64,000 bases of DNA from positions 1 to 64,000 of IMG/VR virus record IMGVR_UViG_3300044648_000206; one strand, given 5' to 3'. The DNA comes from a virus. This document shows positions 1,030-24,829 of this stretch, piece after piece (positions within the stretch are counted from its first letter, which is position 1; each line of letters begins with the position of its first letter). The notes below the pieces were generated by a model, which saw only the letters and a program-made list of their open reading frames with translations, did no database searches and was not told the origin of the DNA. The position numbers and the translations under genes are program-made.

Positions 1030-1292
1030 CGACGCGCCTCGATCTTGGCGAACTGCCGCTTGAGGTCGCGGATGTGCTTGATCTGGCCGTGCCGGCGGCG
1101 GCCGTACCTGGGGTTGCGAGCGTTCAGGTGCAGCCCGAACAGCTTGAGCTGGGCAGCGGCCAGCGCGGACGCCCGGCTGAACTCCCGCATGTTGACCTCG
1201 ACCACGTGGATGATCTCGCCGAAGGCGTTGGGGCCCGGACCGATCACGACCTCGTGGAACTCCAGGTCTTCGTACTTGCCGAGTTCTCTCAC
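1026..1292 (-). CDS. Hypothetical basic protein (88 aa)
   Basis: The protein starts with GTG at 1292, overlapping the TGA of the polymerase gene as GTGA; a second GTG lies one codon earlier. The N-terminal half (VVIGPGPNAFGEIIHVVEVN) looks like a small beta sheet and the C-terminal half is strongly basic (NPRYGRRRHGQIKHIRDLKRQ). No family is recognised. Tight coupling downstream of the DNA polymerase suggests a replication accessory role, but this is only context. Confidence 0.7.
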   Translation of the reverse strand: MRELGKYEDLEFHEVVIGPGPNAFGEIIHVVEVNMREFSRASALAAAQLKLFGLHLNARNPRYGRRRHGQIKHIRDLKRQFAKIEARR

Positions 1293-4096
1293 CACGGGGG
1301 TAGCTCCGTGAAGCACTCCAGGGCTCCCTTCTTCCACAGGTTGTGGATCGTTCCGACTGTGTGGTCCTGGGACTCCAGGTACGGCTTGATCCCGGTGACG
1401 GCTCCGCCTTTGACGTAGACGTCCCGGCAGAGCTGCTCGAGGGTCTGCCACCCACCCTCCGGGCGCCGGCTCACCAGCTGCACGGCCTGTTTCTCGCCCA
1501 CACCGTCCAGGGCCAGCAGGCCCATCCGGACGCCGTTGCCCCGGGGGTCGGGCGCGTAGGTCACCCCGGAGAGGTTGATGTCGGCGCGCAGCAGCTTGAC
1601 CCCGCGCCGGCGAGCAGCCGCCTTGTAGGCGGGCTCCTTCTTCTTGTTGCCCGCGGCCACCGCCAGCAGACCGGCGTGGTAGGCCAGCGGCTCGTTGTTG
1701 ATCAGGTACGCGCACCGGTAGGCGGTCAGCCCGTAGGCCGAGGAGTGCGACTGGTTGAAGCCGTAGGTGACGAAGCCGAGGATTGCGGACCAGAGCCAAG
1801 CCACGTCGTCGTTGGACATGCCCCGGTCGTAGGCCATCTCCTGGACCAGCAGCCGGGCGTCGTCCATGACCTCCCGGGCCTTCTCCATCTCGTCCTTCTG
1901 GGAGGCCTTGATCGCCTTGAGGAAGTCGGTGAGCCGGTCCGCGCTCATCCCCAGGTCACGCAGGATGGTGACGACCTGGTCCTGGAAGAGCATGATCCCG
2001 TAGGTGCTCTTGGTGTGCTTCTCGATCAGCTCGTGCCGACGCGGGATCTGCTGTTCCTTGTTCTTGCGCTCGATGTAGGCCTTGGTCGCGCCGGACTCCA
2101 TGGTGGCCGGACGGAACAGGGCCATCGCGGCCACGATGTCGTCGATCTTGGTCGGCTTGAGCTCCTTGCAGCCCCGGCGAGCGGTGCCACCCTCGAGCTG
2201 GAACACCCCGTCCGTGTCGCCCCGGCTGATCGACTGGAAGGTCTTCTTGTCGGTCAGCGGCACCCAGTCCAAGCCGTCGAGCACGTCGCGGCCCATGAAG
2301 GTCATCGCCCGGTTGAGCACCGTCAGGGTGCGCAGCCCCAGCACGTCGAGCTTGACCGCGCCCAGGGCCTCGGTGTCGTGCATGTCGTACTGGCTGACCA
2401 TGGTGTCCGAGGAGGCCACCTTCTGCAGTGGGATCAGCCGGTCGATGTCGCGCTGGGTGGTGGTGACGATCAGCCCGGCCGCGTGCACTCCGTAGCTGGA
2501 CAGGGTGCCGGCCGCGTCCAGGGTGTAGAGGTCGCGCTTGTCCTGCTCGGGCACGTCCTTCCAGTCCGGGATGTTCTCCACGCCCGAGGCGCGCATCCGG
2601 GCGAAGTAGGCCACCCGCAGCGAGCCCTTGGCCTCGTCGTCCCAGTCCTCGACCTCCCACTCGGCGGTCTGGCGCTTGAGCGAGAACTTGGTGTGGGTGC
2701 CGATCTGCTGGACGGCGAACCGGGTGCGCAGCCAGGCGATCAGGTCCTTGCGCCGGTCGTGCTCCACGTCCAGGTCGATGTCCGGGGGCTTGGTCCGGTC
2801 CCGGCTGATGAACCGCTCGAAGGGCAGGTGCCACTTGATCGGGTCCAGCTGGGTGATGCCGCGCAGGTAGCAGATCATCGAGCCCGAGGCCGAGCCGCGG
2901 GCCTGGTAGAACACCCGGTTGGCCCGGCACCAGTCGGTGACCTCGCCGACCAGCTGGAGGTAGCCGGCCATCCCGGTGTCCCGGACGATCTCAAGCTCGT
3001 CGTTCAGCCGCTCGATGCACCGGTCGTAGTGCGCCTTGGCGATCTCCTTGCGGTCCAGCTTCTCCCGCAGCACCCGCTGGCAGTGCTCACTCAGCTCTCG
3101 GTCGGGGTCCGCGACGGTGAAGGGGATGTTGTAGGAGTAGGAGTCGAGCTCGGGGATCTTGAGGTCGTGGGAGGCAAGGAGATCTGCCAGCCCGGCGGCA
3201 CCAGCAGCAAGTCGCCGTCCTGAGTGATGACCCACGAACCAGGCATCATCGGCGAGGTGGAACCCGTCACCAGGGAAGACAGCGTCGTCGGCCTCGGGGC
3301 CGAAGGCGACGATTCGCTTGAGGATCTCGTGGGTCGGCTTGTCAGCCGGTTCGCAGTAGTGAGCGTCCTGTGTGAGGACCGCCGGGAGGCCCAGCTCGTC
3401 GGCCAGCGCCAGCAGCGTGTCAGCCACCCGGTTGTCATTCCAGCCCTCTTCCTCGTGGTCGATGTTGTGGTTCTGCAGCTCGACGTAGAACTTGGGGAAC
3501 CACTGCGCGTAGGCCCACAGCAGCGACCGGGCGCCGTCGATGTCGCCCCGGACGATGGCTTGGCTGGTCAGCCCGAAGTAGCAGCCCGACGTCGCAGCGA
3601 TGCCCTCGAGCAGGCCCTGGTCGCCCAGGGTGGCCAGGTCGTTGTGGTCGACGATCGGCTTGTTGAAGAAGTTGCGGTGGCTCAGCGTCGACAGCCCGAC
3701 CAGGTTCTCGTAGCCCTTGGAGGTGTAGGCGACCACGCACATGTGGTGGCGCTTGAGCTCGCGCGGCGTCTCGCCCTTGGCGCTCATCGCCTTGACGTGC
3801 GCCTCGCGGTCGGTGACCACGTAGAGCTCGGTGCCGGGGAAGGGCAGGATGTCGTTCTTGCGGCTGGCCTGGTACAGCTGGACCGCGCCGGCCATGTTGC
3901 CGTGGTCGGTGAGACCGAGCGCCGGTTGGCCGAGCTTGACGACGGTGTCCACCATCGCCTTGACCGAGGGCAGGGCGTCCTTGTGCGAGAAGCTGCTGTG
4001 GCTGTGCAGGTTCCACAGCTGGCCGGGAGGCACCACCGGCTCGCGCTTGATGCGCAGTACGGGAGCAGGTCGCTCCCGCACAATGGTCAGGTTCAC
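1289..4096 (-). CDS. dnaE: DNA polymerase III alpha subunit (replicative polymerase)
   Basis: This is the phage replicative polymerase of family C. An N-terminal PHP domain spans about residues 28-300, with metal-binding motifs HSHSS (31-35), TDHGN (63-67), E90, HH (117-118), GC (171-172) and QDAHY (243-247). The polymerase active site has PDIDLD (Asp 439, 441, 443) and the third aspartate in VKLDVLGL near residue 584. A helix-hairpin-helix-like segment (DGVGEKQAVQLV) lies near the C-terminus. At 935 residues it is shorter than cellular DnaE (usually about 1100-1200), lacking the C-terminal OB-fold and tau-binding region. The GTG start has AAGGAG upstream. All PHP ligands appear present, so it could carry its own proofreading activity; that is inference. 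It ends with a GTGA overlap. Confidence 0.96.
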   Translation of the reverse strand: MNLTIVRERPAPVLRIKREPVVPPGQLWNLHSHSSFSHKDALPSVKAMVDTVVKLGQPALGLTDHGNMAGAVQLYQASRKNDILPFPGTELYVVTDREAHVKAMSAKGETPRELKRHHMCVVAYTSKGYENLVGLSTLSHRNFFNKPIVDHNDLATLGDQGLLEGIAATSGCYFGLTSQAIVRGDIDGARSLLWAYAQWFPKFYVELQNHNIDHEEEGWNDNRVADTLLALADELGLPAVLTQDAHYCEPADKPTHEILKRIVAFGPEADDAVFPGDGFHLADDAWFVGHHSGRRLAAGAAGLADLLASHDLKIPELDSYSYNIPFTVADPDRELSEHCQRVLREKLDRKEIAKAHYDRCIERLNDELEIVRDTGMAGYLQLVGEVTDWCRANRVFYQARGSASGSMICYLRGITQLDPIKWHLPFERFISRDRTKPPDIDLDVEHDRRKDLIAWLRTRFAVQQIGTHTKFSLKRQTAEWEVEDWDDEAKGSLRVAYFARMRASGVENIPDWKDVPEQDKRDLYTLDAAGTLSSYGVHAAGLIVTTTQRDIDRLIPLQKVASSDTMVSQYDMHDTEALGAVKLDVLGLRTLTVLNRAMTFMGRDVLDGLDWVPLTDKKTFQSISRGDTDGVFQLEGGTARRGCKELKPTKIDDIVAAMALFRPATMESGATKAYIERKNKEQQIPRRHELIEKHTKSTYGIMLFQDQVVTILRDLGMSADRLTDFLKAIKASQKDEMEKAREVMDDARLLVQEMAYDRGMSNDDVAWLWSAILGFVTYGFNQSHSSAYGLTAYRCAYLINNEPLAYHAGLLAVAAGNKKKEPAYKAAARRRGVKLLRADINLSGVTYAPDPRGNGVRMGLLALDGVGEKQAVQLVSRRPEGGWQTLEQLCRDVYVKGGAVTGIKPYLESQDHTVGTIHNLWKKGALECFTELPPW

Positions 4097-4275: not shown

Positions 4276-4428
4276 TTACTGGATGGCGCGCCGGAGGTAC
4301 GAGAGGCGCTCGAGCACCTCGGTGGCGTTCTCATCCAGCCGGTCGACGTCCTCCTGGCTGGAGGCCTGCGGCTCCTGGAGGGTGTTGATCGCGAAGATCG
4401 CGTAGTCCAGGGCTTCCTTCGCGGTCAC
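4276..4428 (-). CDS. Small helical protein (50 aa)
   Basis: Fifty codons start with GTG at 4428, overlapping the lipoprotein TGA as GTGA. The sequence VTAKEALDYAIFAINTL...DENATEVLERLSYLRR is rich in Ala, Leu and Glu with heptad-like spacing and is likely two amphipathic helices. It ends in TAA just before a strong hairpin, so it is the last gene of this transcription segment. The family is unknown. Confidence 0.65.
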   Translation of the reverse strand: MTAKEALDYAIFAINTLQEPQASSQEDVDRLDENATEVLERLSYLRRAIQ

Positions 4429-4814
4429 GAGGTGCTCAGGTCGAAGTTCGGGATGATCGTCTCGGGTCGGAAGATCACCCGTGACCGGAACAGGTCGACG
4501 TGCACGCCGCCGATCTGGGTGACGATGATCGTCACGTTGTCCGACTTCGCCAGCGTGGTGCGCTCGATGGACCCGTCCGGCTGCTTGCAGATCGCCTGGT
4601 ACGAGCCGCCACCGATCTCGTAGGAGCAGAAGCCCTCGACCGAGAAGAGGACGCTGTCGGTGATGCCGTTGATGCCGACGATCCGGCGCGGGACCTCGAA
4701 GTTCTCGGCGGCCTTGGTCAGGTTCTCGTTGGCCCGGTCGGCGGCGCTGGGACCGGTGCAGCCGGCCACGAGCAGGGCGCCGGCGGCGAACACGGCAGCG
4801 GCGGCGCGCTTCAT
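4425..4814 (-). CDS. Putative lipoprotein (129 aa)
   Basis: The N-terminus MKRAAAAVFAAGALLVAGC is a typical lipoprotein signal peptide with a lipobox LVAGC at residues 15-19, so the mature product should be lipid-anchored outside the membrane at Cys19. The rest has two further cysteines (FCSYEIGG and AICKQPD) and strand-rich stretches (NVTIIVTQIGGVHVDLF, RVIFRPETII). Phage lipoproteins are sometimes superinfection-exclusion factors; that role is only a hypothesis here. It overlaps both neighbours by 4 nt. Confidence 0.8.
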   Translation of the reverse strand: MKRAAAAVFAAGALLVAGCTGPSAADRANENLTKAAENFEVPRRIVGINGITDSVLFSVEGFCSYEIGGGSYQAICKQPDGSIERTTLAKSDNVTIIVTQIGGVHVDLFRSRVIFRPETIIPNFDLSTS

Positions 4815-6563: not shown

Positions 6564-6797
6564 TTACCGGTTGCGCTGAGCGGCGTTGGCGTCGGCCATG
6601 ACGCCGCCCTGCCGCTCGATCTCGCGAATGACGTTCTCGGCCACGGCCTTGCCGGTCCGAGTGGACGCCGCCTTGGCGTCCTCGCCGTCCTGGACAGCCG
6701 AGTTGAACTCGACCTTGATCCAGGCGTCCTTGCCGTCGATGCGGACCTGGTGGGTCACGCCGACCGTCACGCGGTCGCCAGGGGCAACGTCCGTCAT
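6564..6797 (-). CDS. Hypothetical protein (77 aa)
   Basis: The product MTDVAPGDRVTVGVTHQVRIDGKDAWIKVEF is a likely small beta barrel followed by a helix (AVAENVIREIERQG). ATG at 6797 overlaps the stop of the HTH gene as ATGA. The N-terminal beta segment recalls proteins with an SH3/OB-like fold, but no family can be named. It is translationally coupled to the HTH protein upstream, suggesting related function. Confidence 0.7.
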   Translation of the reverse strand: MTDVAPGDRVTVGVTHQVRIDGKDAWIKVEFNSAVQDGEDAKAASTRTGKAVAENVIREIERQGGVMADANAAQRNR

Positions 6798-7279
6798 CAG
6801 TGCTCCATCTCTGCCAGCTGCTGCTGGGCAAGGGCGATCTGGGAGAGCGGGACCGAGGTGTCCTCGCCCTTGTCGGCCAGCTCCTGAGCTCGCTGACGGT
6901 GGTACGCGATCCGGCTGTAGAGCCGGTTGCGCTCCTTGCGCTGGTCCTTGGTCCACTTGCGCGGCCGGCCCGTCTTCTTCTCGATGACGTCCTGCAGCGG
7001 CACGACCTGCTTCTGCCGGTCGAGGTGGCCGCGGATCTTGTCGATGTCGGCCTGGGTGTAGAGGTAGACCTCGATCCGGCCGAACAGCGCCTTGAAGCTG
7101 GGCACCAGGCGGTCGGCCGGATCGGGCAGGTCCTTGGTGGCCACGATCAGGCGCCGCAGCGTGCGGTCGCTGGTGCCCAGCAGGGCAGCCGCCTCGCGGA
7201 CCATGAAGTAGTCGCCGTCCAGGGACCGCACGAAGCGGGTCACCGGGTCCAGCGGGCGGGCGAACACGGCGCTGCTCAT
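6797..7279 (-). CDS. Helix-turn-helix DNA-binding protein (160 aa)
   Basis: Residues 22-46 (GDYFMVREAAALLGTSDRTL and onward) match a MerR/excisionase-type winged helix-turn-helix, with the usual YFTVREAAELLGVS-like recognition helix. The middle (LYTQADIDKIRGHLD) completes the wing as in MerR-type proteins. The C-terminal half is basic and coiled (KDQRKERNRLYSRIAYHRQRAQEL). ATG at 7279 overlaps the upstream stop. It is the only clear site-specific DNA-binding protein in the leftward block and a candidate ligand of the 23-bp dyads at 7742 and 11290; that pairing is inference. Confidence 0.75.
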   Translation of the reverse strand: MSSAVFARPLDPVTRFVRSLDGDYFMVREAAALLGTSDRTLRRLIVATKDLPDPADRLVPSFKALFGRIEVYLYTQADIDKIRGHLDRQKQVVPLQDVIEKKTGRPRKWTKDQRKERNRLYSRIAYHRQRAQELADKGEDTSVPLSQIALAQQQLAEMEH

Positions 7280-7737
7280 GGCTGCTCCGCGACGAACCGC
7301 AGCGAGGTGCTGGTCTTGACCTCGGACACGTCGGCAACGTCCTGGGGCGAGAGCCACCCACTTGCCACCGCCTCCGCGACCTTGGCGTTGACCAGCTTCC
7401 GCTCGGTCAGCCTGTTCCATGCCCGGGCGCCGATCTTCGCCTTGAGGGCCTGCGCGTCGATCCTCGCGTCATCCCTGGACACAACCGTGGCGCGCCAGGG
7501 CTGGCCGGTCAGGTCAGTGCCGACCGCCGTCCGCTCCCCGCGCAGAAGCAGGTGCTGGGTGAGGGTGTCGCGGACCTTGGTCCGCTGCTCCTGGGCCTCG
7601 GCCAGGGCCGCCTCAGCGTCCGCCACGGCGTCGATCAGAGCGGTCAGCTCCGGGTCGTCGTCGACGATCTCGGCGATCGTGTCGTCGTAGACGGTGCTGG
7701 GCTCAGGGGAACTTACATCGGTGTCATTCAGGGGCAC
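7276..7737 (-). CDS. Hypothetical protein with coiled coil (153 aa)
   Basis: The GTG at 7737 is the first plausible start after the primase stop at 7763. The N-terminal 60 residues are acidic and helical (DPELTALIDAVADAEAALAE AQEQRTKVRD), then the protein becomes basic with a motif RIDAQALKAKIGARAWNRLT. Similar small phage proteins with a terminal substrate-like region are known but the function is unclear. The start lies immediately behind the 23-bp dyad, so its expression may be controlled there. Confidence 0.65.
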   Translation of the reverse strand: MPLNDTDVSSPEPSTVYDDTIAEIVDDDPELTALIDAVADAEAALAEAQEQRTKVRDTLTQHLLLRGERTAVGTDLTGQPWRATVVSRDDARIDAQALKAKIGARAWNRLTERKLVNAKVAEAVASGWLSPQDVADVSEVKTSTSLRFVAEQP

Positions 7738-7741
7738 GAGC

Positions 7742-7764
7742 AGGAAGTTACACGGGTGTAGTTC
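7742..7764 (-). promoter_or_regulatory. 23-bp dyad element, copy 1
   Basis: Read on the minus strand the element contains CTACACCCGTGTAACTT and sits exactly in the short gap between the primase stop (7763) and the next start (7737). It matches copy 2 at 11290-11312 at 22 of 23 positions, in the opposite orientation. The core TACACC/GGTGTA is a palindrome with one mismatch here. An operator or other protein-binding site is the simplest reading. Confidence 0.65.
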
Positions 7765-8632
7765 ACCTGGCAAGAGACACGAGCAAGGTGGAGCGAAGTT
7801 GTCGAGGAGCCTCCTCGATGTCCTTCGCCTGCACCCCGGACCAATCGACCCGAGACACCGCAAACCCTTCATGCGTAAGGCGTTCGTCGAGCCCGACGAC
7901 TCGCTTGCCCTTGTCGGTGACCCAGCCCTCGACGGCGCGCTGACCGGCCAGGTCGTTGTCCATCACCAGCCCGACGTGGCGCACGCCGGCGCGATGCAGC
8001 AGCTGGACCTGCCGGTCGCTGATCTGGGCCCCGAACAGCGCCCAGGCCTCGTGCCCGACCTCCCAGCAGGCCATCGCGTCGGCCGCGCCCTCGACCAGCA
8101 GCACCGAGTCCCGGCCCTCGGTGGTGTAGCCGAAGAGCCGGTCGGAGACCTTGGAGTTGGGCGGGTAGACGTACTTGGGCTGGTGCTCCAGCTGGCGGTA
8201 GACCACGCCGTGGATGCGCCCGTACGGGTCACGCAGCGGGTAGCAGGGCGAGGGTCGGGGCACCCCGTTGACCGAGCGCAGGCCGTTGTAGCCCAGCCGG
8301 AAGTGGTCGATGGTCTTCTGCTCGAAGCGGTCGCGCCAGTACGGGGTGGCCACGCCTGGGCGGTGGAAGAGGTCCAGCCAGCTCTCGGGGTAGACCTTGA
8401 CTTCCTCCAGCTCGTCGAGCATCTCGAGGATGCCCTGACCGAAGTGGAAGTCGTCGCTCTCGACGATCGTCTTGGTGTCCCCGGTGGAGCCGCAGACGTA
8501 GCAGAACCAGACGCCCTTGATCACGTTGACCGAGGCGCTGGCGTGGCTGTCGCCGTGGACCGGGCAGCGGAAGGCCCGCTCTCGTCCTCTACCCCGGGTG
8601 AGAGCTTCCTCGAGACTTCTGTAGGTGGGCAC
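7763..8632 (-). CDS. dnaG: DnaG-type primase (289 aa)
   Basis: This enzyme makes RNA primers for the replication fork. A CHC2-type zinc site is formed by Cys23, His26, Cys44 and Cys47 (FRCPVHGDSH then FCYVCGSTGD). A TOPRIM catalytic core follows with LLVEGAADAMA (catalytic Glu near residue 182) and VMDNDLAG (Asp-x-Asp near 224). At 289 residues it lacks the C-terminal helicase-interacting domain of bacterial DnaG. It lies in the same operon as the DnaB-type helicase and DnaE. The N-terminus overlaps the preceding 67-codon gene by 44 nt. Confidence 0.93.
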   Translation of the reverse strand: MPTYRSLEEALTRGRGRERAFRCPVHGDSHASASVNVIKGVWFCYVCGSTGDTKTIVESDDFHFGQGILEMLDELEEVKVYPESWLDLFHRPGVATPYWRDRFEQKTIDHFRLGYNGLRSVNGVPRPSPCYPLRDPYGRIHGVVYRQLEHQPKYVYPPNSKVSDRLFGYTTEGRDSVLLVEGAADAMACWEVGHEAWALFGAQISDRQVQLLHRAGVRHVGLVMDNDLAGQRAVEGWVTDKGKRVVGLDERLTHEGFAVSRVDWSGVQAKDIEEAPRQLRSTLLVSLAR

Positions 8633-9528: not shown

Positions 9529-9709
9529 GGAGCTCACGCCGCACCTCCACCGCCGGCTCGGTGATGTGGCTGGCGCCCTGGGCCCGGGTGGCCGAGCAGC
9601 GAACGCACTTGCGGTACCAGGGGCTGCCGTCCTCAGGATGGACGGTCTCCATGTAGTGCTGTCCCTCGATGCAAACCTGTGCCAGAGCAGTTGAGTCTGT
9701 GAAACGCAT
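9518..9709 (-). CDS. Small zinc-binding protein (63 aa)
   Basis: The product includes CIEGQHYMETV and a CVRC pair (WYRKCVRCSATRAQG), giving a Cys-His-Cys-Cys set typical of small zinc fingers. Related mini-proteins with CVRC or CTRC knuckles are widespread in actinobacteriophages. ATG at 9709 overlaps the helicase TGA. The function is unknown. Confidence 0.7.
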   Translation of the reverse strand: MRFTDSTALAQVCIEGQHYMETVHPEDGSPWYRKCVRCSATRAQGASHITEPAVEVRRELRAV

Positions 9710-10983
9710 CAGTCCAGGTCCTCTCGGTCACGCAGGTCGTCGGCCACCTCGCGCGAGATCTCGTGCAGCTGGCCGTCGTTCGGCAGGAAACGATTGAAGT
9801 ACCGCGCGCCAGAGTCGCCATGTCGATGCTTCTCGATCGAGTTGACCTGGCTGGTCTTGCTGTACTGGGTCATCGTGGTGAGCAGGTCCCCGTCCCGGCC
9901 CATGGCGTCCGAGCCGGCGAGGTTGCTGGCCTTGGGCGGGTACTTGGCAGTCTCGCCCTCACGGTTGACCTGCACCAGCACCATCATCCGCGTGTCTTTG
10001 GCGATGGTGATCTTCTTGAGCTCGCCAGAGAGCATGGCCAGGATGCGCCAGTCCTCCATCATCGACTTGCCGCTGGTGCTGGTCATCAGGTCGATGTAGT
10101 CGATGACGTTGAGGTCCACGTCACCGGCCCGGGCTGCGACGGTGGCCGGTGTGCAGGCCCCGTCCGAGGGGTCGAACAGGAACAGCTCGCCCGGCACCTC
10201 GTCGCGGATCTTGTTGACCAGCTTGCGGTAGGCGACCATGTCGAAGGTCCGGGTCCGCATCGCCCGGTGGTCCACCGGCAGGCCCAGCTTGGCGCCCAGG
10301 AGGACGTGCAGCCGGGTCAGGACCTGCTCGTGGGGCATCTCCAGGGACCAGTAGTTGACCCGGCGACCCTCCAGCAGGGCCGTGGCGGTCACCTCGAGCG
10401 CGCCCCAGCTCTTGCCCTTGCCGAGGCGGGCGGCGTGGAACCAGAGGTAGCCCTTGCCCATGCCCCCGGTGACGTGCTGGAGGGTCTTCCAGGGCAGCGT
10501 GATCGTGTCCGGGCGCTCGGCGTACCGAGTCAGGAAGCTCAGGTCCCACAGGGCGTTGGAGGGCGGCTTGACGCCCGCCAGCGGGGTGTAGTTGGCCAGC
10601 GCAATGGCGGCCTCGGAGTACTCCCCCTCCTGGATGTAGATCGTCGCCTCGCGCACCGCGGAACGCAGGTTCCGCTGGTCGGCGATCTGACGCACCTCGT
10701 CGGCCGCGAAGGCCGCGTCGGTGGTGTCGGAGAAGGGGAACTCAGGGAACTTGGACAGCAGCGCGTCCTGAGCCGGGCATCGCCCGTAGGTGGCTGCGTA
10801 GGAGAGCACCCAGCGGTACTCCGTCTGGAACCCGACGAACATCTCGGGTTCGATGCCGTGCTGCTGGCCCAGGCCAGCGTCGTGGCTGTTGATCAACGCA
10901 CTGATCAGCAGCGCCTCTGCAGTCTGCCGCACTCGGTTGCAGGCCCCCTCAACTCGGCGTTCCGTGGTTGGTGGGTGAACCAT
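9709..10983 (-). CDS. dnaB: DnaB-type replicative helicase (424 aa)
   Basis: This is the fork helicase that unwinds DNA ahead of the polymerase. The N-terminal 130 residues are helical and take the place of the DnaB N-domain. The RecA-like core carries AARLGKGKS at 184-192, a DnaB-style Walker A (compare ARPxMGKT), and a Walker B NVIDYIDLM near 290. Further DnaB-like features are VNYWSLEMPHEQVLTR after Walker A and VLVQVNREGE in the sensor position. It is the first gene of the leftward operon, starting with ATG at 10983 next to the large divergent control region, with primase and polymerase downstream. Confidence 0.88.
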   Translation of the reverse strand: MVHPPTTERRVEGACNRVRQTAEALLISALINSHDAGLGQQHGIEPEMFVGFQTEYRWVLSYAATYGRCPAQDALLSKFPEFPFSDTTDAAFAADEVRQIADQRNLRSAVREATIYIQEGEYSEAAIALANYTPLAGVKPPSNALWDLSFLTRYAERPDTITLPWKTLQHVTGGMGKGYLWFHAARLGKGKSWGALEVTATALLEGRRVNYWSLEMPHEQVLTRLHVLLGAKLGLPVDHRAMRTRTFDMVAYRKLVNKIRDEVPGELFLFDPSDGACTPATVAARAGDVDLNVIDYIDLMTSTSGKSMMEDWRILAMLSGELKKITIAKDTRMMVLVQVNREGETAKYPPKASNLAGSDAMGRDGDLLTTMTQYSKTSQVNSIEKHRHGDSGARYFNRFLPNDGQLHEISREVADDLRDREDLD

Positions 10984-11098: not shown

Positions 11099-11155
11099 GG
11101 CCCGGCCAGATGGGGTGCGCTGGACGCCTGAGGCGTCTCACCATCTGGCCGGGCC
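11099..11155 (-). terminator. Strong hairpin, probable leftward terminator
   Basis: Perfect 15-bp arms GGCCCGGCCAGATGG (11099-11113) and CCATCTGGCCGGGCC (11141-11155) enclose a second perfect hairpin GACGCCTGAGGCGTC (11123-11137). On the minus strand the stem is followed by TTTCCC, and on the plus strand by CAATGC, so leftward termination is more likely. It lies about 115 nt downstream of a promoter-like sequence, and upstream of the helicase gene. Confidence 0.7.
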
Positions 11156-11220: not shown

Positions 11221-11249
11221 AGTATGTACCACCCACAGCCTGTGGACAA
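11221..11249 (-). promoter_or_regulatory. Possible leftward promoter
   Basis: On the minus strand TTGTCC (11249-11244) and CATACT (11226-11221) are separated by exactly 17 bp; each hexamer matches consensus at four of six positions. The -35 hexamer overlaps a DnaA box. It would produce a short transcript ending at the hairpin at 11155-11099 or, if read through, the helicase operon. Confidence 0.4.
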
Positions 11250-11262
11250 CCCTTGTGGACGA
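11241..11262 (-). promoter_or_regulatory. Two tandem DnaA-box-like sites
   Basis: Read on the minus strand, 11249-11241 is TTGTCCACA, identical to the preferred DnaA box of Streptomyces and mycobacteria, and 11262-11254 is TCGTCCACA, a one-base variant still inside the actinobacterial consensus. They have the same orientation and their starts are 13 bp apart. Two adjacent boxes in the only large non-coding region, beside helicase and primase genes, suggest host DnaA loading or transcriptional control by DnaA. Confidence 0.55.
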
Positions 11263-11289
11263 GATTCTTCCGCGTCGGTGCTTGCAGCC

Positions 11290-11312
11290 GAACTACACCG
11301 GTGTAACTTCCT
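11290..11312 (+). promoter_or_regulatory. 23-bp dyad element, copy 2
   Basis: This copy has a perfect palindromic core TACACCGGTGTA inside a longer conserved block (AACTACACCGGTGTAACTTC), and matches copy 1 at 7742-7764 with a single difference at the centre. Flanking asymmetrical bases are conserved too, so the two copies share more than a palindrome. A regulator-binding site shared by the origin region and an internal point of the leftward operon is the likely role. Confidence 0.65.
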
Positions 11313-11656: not shown

Positions 11657-11685
11657 TTGACCTTGGTCAACTTTTCGCCTACAAT
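11657..11685 (+). promoter_or_regulatory. Rightward sigma70-type promoter P1
   Basis: TTGACC (11657-11662) and TACAAT (11680-11685) are separated by exactly 17 bp, close to consensus for a vegetative sigma factor. The spacer end and -10 region (CAACTTTTCGC then TACAATGGA) and the first transcribed bases (CACGCGGG.AGA.CTATG.CCG) are repeated at a second promoter at 18176. It should drive the rightward block beginning at 11795. Confidence 0.85.
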
Positions 11686-23656: not shown

Positions 23657-24829
23657 ATGGAGAAGATCAACGACAAGCTGCTGAACTGGGCCTCGATCCT
23701 CGAGGACAACACCCGCCGGCAGGCCGAGGCCACCTCGCGCCTGCCGTTCGTGTTCCCGCACGTAGCCCTGATGCCCGACGCCCACCTTGGCAAGGGCGCC
23801 ACGGTCGGCTCGGTCATCCCCACCGAGCGGGCCATCATCCCGGCGGCGGTCGGGGTGGACATCGGCTGCGGCATGATCGCGGTCCGCAGCCAGTGGACCT
23901 GGACCGAGTGGCAGATCGTGACAGGGCCGAACCAGGCGCCGCTGCGGGAGGCCATCGAGCGGGCCATCCCGCTCTCGGCCGGTCGCTACAACGAGCGCCT
24001 GATCAACTCGGCCGATGCCAAGGCCCGCGAGCTGGACCGCACCGAGGGCATCGAGACGGCCGAGAAGATCGCCCCGTCCTGGCCCCGCCAGCTGGGCACC
24101 CTGGGCTCGGGCAACCACTTCATCGAGATCACCGTCGATGAGGCGGACCGGGTGTGGCTGTTCCTGCACTCCGGCTCCCGGGGCGTGGGCAACAAGATGG
24201 CCCAGAAGCACATCAAGACCGCCCAGGAGCTGTGCAAGCGGTGGCACATCCGGCTCGAGGACCCCGACCTGGCCTACCTGGTCGAGGGCACCGACGAGTT
24301 CTGGGCCTACATCCGCGACCTGCGGTGGGCCCAGAAGTTCGCCCTGCTCAACCGCGAGGAGATGATGGACCGCCTCGTGAAGTGCGTGGAGGAGTTCACC
24401 CAGGTCCCGGTCATCCGGGAGCAGACGATCAACTGCCACCACAACTACACCGAGCAGGAGAAGCACTTCGGTCGGCCGGTGTGGCTCTCGCGCAAGGGAG
24501 CCATCGACGCCTCCGAGGGCACCTGGGGGCTGATCCCGGGCTCCATGGGCGCGGCCTCCTACGTGGTGCAGGGCAAGGGCAACCGGGTGGCCCTGAACAG
24601 CTCCCCGCACGGAGCTGGCCGGGTGTTCTCCCGGGGCGTGGCCAAGCGGACCTTCACCCTGGAGGACCTGGCCGACCGGATGAAGGGCATCGAGTGGCGC
24701 GAGTCCAAGGCCTTCCTGGACGAGCACCCGGACGCCTACAAGAACATCGACGTCGTGATGGCTGACGCCGCCGATCTGGTCGAGGTGAAGCACGAGCTGC
24801 ACCAGGTGCTCAACGTGAAGGGGGACTGA
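23657..24829 (+). CDS. rtcB: RtcB-type RNA ligase (390 aa)
   Basis: RtcB joins RNA 3'-phosphate (or 2',3'-cyclic phosphate) ends to 5'-OH ends through a GMP-histidine intermediate. Family motifs are all visible: MPDAHLGKG (39-47), GVDIGCGM (about 67-74), GSGNHFIEI (about 150), HSGSRGVGN (about 171), CHHNY (about 256), PGSMGAASY (about 295) and SPHGAGR (about 313), the last containing the guanylylated His. Metal ligands Asp, Cys and several His are in place, and the length (390) is close to the usual 400-480. ATG at 23657 follows AGAGGACTGACACC. A phage copy could repair tRNAs broken by host defence nucleases. Confidence 0.95.
   Translation: MEKINDKLLNWASILEDNTRRQAEATSRLPFVFPHVALMPDAHLGKGATVGSVIPTERAIIPAAVGVDIGCGMIAVRSQWTWTEWQIVTGPNQAPLREAIERAIPLSAGRYNERLINSADAKARELDRTEGIETAEKIAPSWPRQLGTLGSGNHFIEITVDEADRVWLFLHSGSRGVGNKMAQKHIKTAQELCKRWHIRLEDPDLAYLVEGTDEFWAYIRDLRWAQKFALLNREEMMDRLVKCVEEFTQVPVIREQTINCHHNYTEQEKHFGRPVWLSRKGAIDASEGTWGLIPGSMGAASYVVQGKGNRVALNSSPHGAGRVFSRGVAKRTFTLEDLADRMKGIEWRESKAFLDEHPDAYKNIDVVMADAADLVEVKHELHQVLNVKGD

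Follow-up and report, generated by a model that had tools for sequence, protein, structure and literature searches.

The window, the whole stretch of 64,000 nucleotides that was analysed, comprises positions 1 to 64,000 of the 72,264-bp IMG/VR virus record IMGVR_UViG_3300044648_000206. Genes for replication proteins lie in a leftward segment that ends in a polymerase gene, and this segment is separated by a gap of 0.8 kb from a rightward operon (Table 1). The segment also encodes, at 4425-4814 on the minus strand, a protein of the PHROG recombination directionality factor family (Pfam Phage_VG64), which suggests that the phage is temperate, although none of the genes scanned was recognised as an integrase. 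Elsewhere the window carries three tRNA genes and, at 23657-24829 on the plus strand, a gene for an RtcB-like RNA ligase similar to those of mycobacteriophages. The GC content of 67.8% suggests a host among the Actinobacteria, as do the proteins nearest to those for replication and to RtcB.

Table 1. Genes, boxes and signals around the repeated dyad (window positions unless stated otherwise)
Feature	Position	Strand	Remarks
DnaE-type DNA polymerase III alpha gene	1289..4096	-	end of leftward segment
HTH (excisionase-like) protein gene	6797..7279	-	
Gene of unknown function	7276..7737	-	directly after box A1
McdR-type box A2	7711..7728	+	ACTTACATCGGTGTCATT; 25.9 bits; within start of gene 7276-7737
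McdR-type box A1	7746..7763	+	AGTTACACGGGTGTAGTT; 21.7 bits; between primase stop and next leftward gene
Weak promoter-like pair TTGCCA-N17-TAACTT	7745..7773	-	overlaps A1; by eye; not called by promoter scan
DnaG-like primase gene	7763..8632	-	
DnaB-like replicative helicase gene	9709..10983	-	
15-bp perfect inverted repeat	11099-11155		in B's gap; -45 kcal/mol as RNA (z -4.9); no T run
DnaA box, exact	11241..11249	-	TTGTCCACA; near B
DnaA box, near-exact	11254..11262	-	1 mismatch
Weak promoter-like pair TTGCAG-N16-TAACTT	11282..11309	+	overlaps B; by eye; not called by promoter scan
McdR-type box B	11291..11308	-	reads AGTTACACCGGTGTAGTT on - strand; exact copy; 22.2 bits with independent matrix; divergent gap upstream of helicase gene
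Sigma70-like promoter TTGACC-N17-TACAAT	11657..11685	+	of rightward operon; promoter scan, rated good
McdR-type box C	67589-67606 of full record, outside window		18.4 bits; just upstream of ruvC-like gene

The original prediction described two 23-mers, at 7742-7764 (AGGAAGTTACACGGGTGTAGTTC) and 11290-11312 (GAACTACACCGGTGTAACTTCCT), as matching at 22 of 23 positions and as lying between genes. Both points were borne out, with the refinement that the copies are inverted: identity is 22/23 after reverse-complementing one of them and 2/23 in direct orientation. The first occupies the 25 bp that separate the primase stop (7763) from the GTG (7737) predicted to start the next gene, and the second lies in the 0.8-kb divergent gap with the leftward helicase gene on one side and the rightward operon on the other. 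At up to 3 mismatches the 18-mer AGTTACACCGGTGTAGTT has two matches in the window and none in 100 shuffles. The proposed scan of the rest of the genome for the 23-mer yielded a third copy (GTAGTTACACTCGTGTAGTTT) at 67588-67608 of the record, and a fourth, more diverged copy that had been missed lies at 7711-7728. The 18-bp core common to the phage copies is AGTTACACNNGTGTAGTT. Given that the centres of the boxes at 7711-7728 (A2) and 7746-7763 (A1) are exactly 35 bp apart, site A is a pair. The exact 23-mer has no copy in other IMG/VR contigs.

The core matches the binding site of a known regulator. In mycobacteria the MerR-type protein McdR/ResR (Rv1830) binds AATnACAnnnnTGTnATT at whiB2, at MSMEG_0833 (given as the Rv0430 homologue) and at MSMEG_5468; the length of the spacer in this box is essential whereas its sequence is free, and whiB2 is repressed by McdR (PMC9040748). 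Some mismatches to the box are tolerated by ResR of Mycobacterium tuberculosis (PMC10336103). The phage core keeps the frame of AATnACAnnnnTGTnATT except that A is replaced by G at positions 2 and 16; A2 differs from the published consensus at one position and A1, B and C at two each, while 0.03 matches with at most 2 mismatches are expected per 64 kb. In all four phage boxes the half-site spacing is constant and the spacer varies (CGGG, CCGG, CGAG and TCGG). The phage boxes resemble the mycobacterial box, e.g. that of the whiB2 promoter (PMC9040748, PMC10336103), in being 18-bp inverted repeats with the same half-site spacing, the end A and T and a free spacer; they differ from it in adjoining replication and recombination genes and in having one arm that reads AGT where the mycobacterial one reads AAT.

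This match was quantified with a scoring matrix built only from 55 boxes at whiB2 and DUF3263 loci and from no phage sequence, the loci having been picked by protein and not by motif to avoid circularity. Over the phage, the four highest places are taken by A2 (25.9 bits), B (22.2), A1 (21.7) and C (18.4), and the next score is 10.1. Resampling the window 100 times with a third-order Markov model gives a mean maximum of 8.4 bits and a 95% point of 12.4; the largest value is 19.2 bits and, therefore, C on its own is not safe. Three of the four phage boxes fall within the score range of the host boxes (21.7-31.7 bits) and C falls below it. This low score of C speaks against an assignment to McdR, as does the departure of both AGT-type arms from the best consensus: of the 110 arms at whiB2 and DUF3263 loci just 1 has G at position 2, although such a G is commoner at crgA. 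In total, the assignment of the phage dyads to the McdR/ResR-type class of binding sites is well supported by sequence. The original suggestion that the palindromic core is a control site for a dimeric regulator is likewise well supported.

Several other identities were considered. A private phage operator was the first reading and was dropped as the core recurs in actinobacterial genomes; an oriC-proximal element of unknown function was the second, and McdR was recognised once whiB2 and DUF3263 turned up beside host copies. The parS site of actinobacteria (TGTTTCACGTGAAACA) differs from the core of the dyad (TTACACNNGTGTA) and in mycobacteria adjoins the box as a separate element. The 25-bp inverted repeat of FtsR (Rv1828), AACCCTAAAGTAAAGGTTGAGGGTA, bears no likeness to the phage dyad, and the operator sites of phiC31 were set aside as phiC31 does not contain the motif. 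In view of the crgA result there is no need to assume a distinct AGTT-flanked class that has a protein of its own, although such a class may exist.

In bacteria the box is largely confined to one phylum. A scan with AGTTACACNNGTGTAGTTC of about 85,000 prokaryotic species genomes gave 59 loci, 58 of which are labelled Actinomycetota. The remaining locus is in an 'Acidobacteria' MAG (JACZST010000033.1) that carries both the box and a 56% identical McdR homologue, an identity like that in Acidimicrobiia, and this MAG may be actinobacterial and mislabelled. Among 297 Actinomycetes genomes the core with at most 1 mismatch has 73 matches, compared to 1 for the reversed control, and an McdR homologue, searched for with a query protein recognised by its garA-ftsR-BFN neighbourhood, is present in 283. 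With at most 2 mismatches the published consensus lies upstream of whiB2 in 29/30 cases and upstream of DUF3263 in 26/26, the reversed control giving no match in either set, and a consensus box lies downstream of crgA in 22/30. Bacterial copies are located (i) between crgA and a rhomboid-like gene convergent with it, in many cases next to the DnaA-box-like TTCTCCACAG, (ii) in mycobacteria between jag and gidB-parA-parB, adjoining the parS-like TGTTTCACGTGAAACA, (iii) in three Aeromicrobium loci upstream of nrdR, exactly flanked by a pair of ATCTAGT (NrdR-like) boxes that are 31 bp apart, and (iv) upstream of nrdH, whiB2-type genes and DUF3263 and between dnaA and dnaN. Pfam matches provided the names of crgA, nrdR, WhiB, glutaredoxin and DUF3263, and the other neighbours were named from reading translations. 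By sequence, these loci outline a broad candidate McdR regulon in actinobacteria that would include whiB2, DUF3263, crgA (on its 3' side), jag-gidB-parAB, nrdR, nrdHIE and dnaA-dnaN.

The phage boxes lie 5' of leftward replication and recombination genes, and C precedes a ruvC-whiB-like pair. C is about 20 bp upstream of the RuvC-like gene (PHROG E 3e-6; the Pfam RuvC match is below the cut-off), and the next gene (L012:3544-4116) encodes a WhiB-like protein (PF02467, 58.2 bits against a cut-off of 23.6) that shares 37% identity with an actinobacterial WhiB2 across 70 residues. By analogy, this arrangement would echo whiB2, the main known host target of McdR. The GTG at 7737 lies 7 nt past the promoter-like pair that overlaps A1 and is a possible leaderless start. 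The weakness of the promoters at the boxes, none of which the promoter scan calls, counts against control by McdR, and so does the lack of boxes in related phages.

As to the protein that binds, the original prediction named a lytic regulator of the phage or the HTH protein encoded at 6797. Neither proposal was sustained, as the motif fits the box of host McdR/ResR instead. The protein encoded at 6797 shows no more than weak similarity to excisionase/HTH_17, and a relation between it and McdR could not be detected. As the phage also lacks an McdR homologue, host McdR is the best candidate for the binding protein. Combining these data, we suggest that host McdR probably binds the four phage boxes and controls the replication and recombination operons. 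In this model, a host McdR dimer would occupy B, A1/A2 and C; at A1 it would lie across the weak promoter and cause repression, as at host whiB2. McdR would modulate, and probably repress, the replication and recombination operons of the phage; a drop in free McdR, or its titration by replicating phage DNA, would increase their expression.

An alternative is that the boxes are operators of a phage-encoded regulator, i.e. the HTH protein from 6797 or one that has escaped recognition, and that the likeness to the McdR box arose by convergence or capture. An HTH gene does lie between box A and the polymerase gene, and a precedent for a look-alike may exist in virus record G325 (L384), which shares the TTACACNNGTGTAA core in its early region and has ten copies of TTACACYSGTGTAA, none of them beyond the first 14 kb; their outer bases are free and their spacer is nearly constant. 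The G325 repeat is probably a phage-owned regulon with a look-alike operator for another protein, and its ten copies make a phage-owned look-alike possible. In the phage studied here, however, the boxes retain their outer A and T and vary in the spacer, as McdR boxes do and unlike the repeat of G325, and a matrix from host promoters alone recovers all four sites. Given also the lack of a relation between the 6797 protein and McdR and the lack of an encoded homologue, we consider a phage regulator unlikely.

The boxes could also serve chiefly in replication or chromosome organisation, B forming part of a phage origin together with the DnaA boxes and the hairpin and thereby copying an origin-proximal arrangement of the host. 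The exact and near-exact DnaA boxes are within 50 bp of B, the strong hairpin in the same gap could be either a terminator or an origin hairpin, and host copies are found near crgA, dnaA-dnaN and gidB-parAB, often beside DnaA-box-like sequence. As A and C lack DnaA boxes and are at gene starts, and as host boxes of known effect are mostly in promoters, we regard a primary role of this kind as improbable. It is less probable still that the boxes are decoys by which phage DNA titrates host McdR and derepresses whiB2 and other targets in the phage's favour: McdR represses whiB2, and phage replication would amplify the several boxes that each genome carries, but three to four sites are few for a sponge, which would also have no need of placement at gene starts. 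Chance palindromes with no regulator at all would fit the absence of boxes from the relatives checked; set against the 0.03 matches expected, three near-identical 18-mers and a fourth box make this explanation hardly credible. Of the readings considered, we favor binding by host McdR.

The original prediction took a lack of conservation in related phages as a sign against the block, and in this respect the result goes against it in part: the relatives checked have no box, and yet the motif is kept in host chromosomes and occurs in unrelated high-GC viruses. A helicase-based search gave no close relatives. The polymerase-based relatives (53-58% identical), DalanDe, GMA6 and Cantare have no box in the regions scanned, and none was found in TM4 (first 50 kb) or phiC31; a single weak site (16.8 bits) is located in Lederberg, between the HTH gene gp30 and gp31. 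In IMG/VR contigs of more than 55% GC, ARTTACACNNGTGTARTT has 20 loci as opposed to 2 for the reversed control, whereas in contigs of less than 55% GC the numbers are 60 and 58; the contrast is significant (Fisher p 0.0003), with an effective number made smaller by near-duplicates among the matches. Exact-pattern matches in low-GC viruses are chance. Four high-GC virus contigs (L182, L184, L200 and L216) have an McdR-type box at the 3' end of similar CPxCG-motif genes, and in another high-GC virus (L203:10458-10475) such a box lies between divergent HTH genes, a region that is likely a lysis-lysogeny switch.

Short repeated sites in gaps between phage genes are also known from the stoperators of cluster A mycobacteriophages. 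Stoperators lack symmetry, number in the tens and are targets of the phage repressor, whereas the sites described here are four palindromic copies that fit a box of the host. A parallel in function may be WhiBTM4, the WhiB-like protein encoded by mycobacteriophage TM4, by which host whiB2 is lowered (PMC6282962). In both cases a phage would act on the host division regulator WhiB2 and a WhiB-like protein is encoded; the link in the present phage is a DNA site for McdR. More tentatively, it is conceivable that the origin region, the primase-distal operon and the ruvC-whiB operon are all under host McdR and that the phage, through a WhiB-like protein of its own, intervenes in both arms of the host McdR-WhiB2 loop, with replication timed by the division state of the host. 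In the openly accessible literature we found no description of phages with McdR boxes.

McdR/ResR is conserved in actinobacteria, where it regulates genes for division and growth; in mycobacteria it ties together division, DNA repair and antibiotic resilience. Our computations suggest that McdR acts across Actinobacteria on division (whiB2, crgA), segregation (gidB-parAB), nucleotide reduction (nrdR, nrdHIE) and the dnaA-dnaN origin region. This candidate regulon extends past the individual targets named in PMC9040748 and PMC10336103, although one of these papers predicts many more target genes. If phages carry McdR sites, they would be natural probes of this circuit, and the timing of phage replication could be tested against the cell-cycle state of the host. 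The virus described here may read that state to time the expression of its own replication genes.
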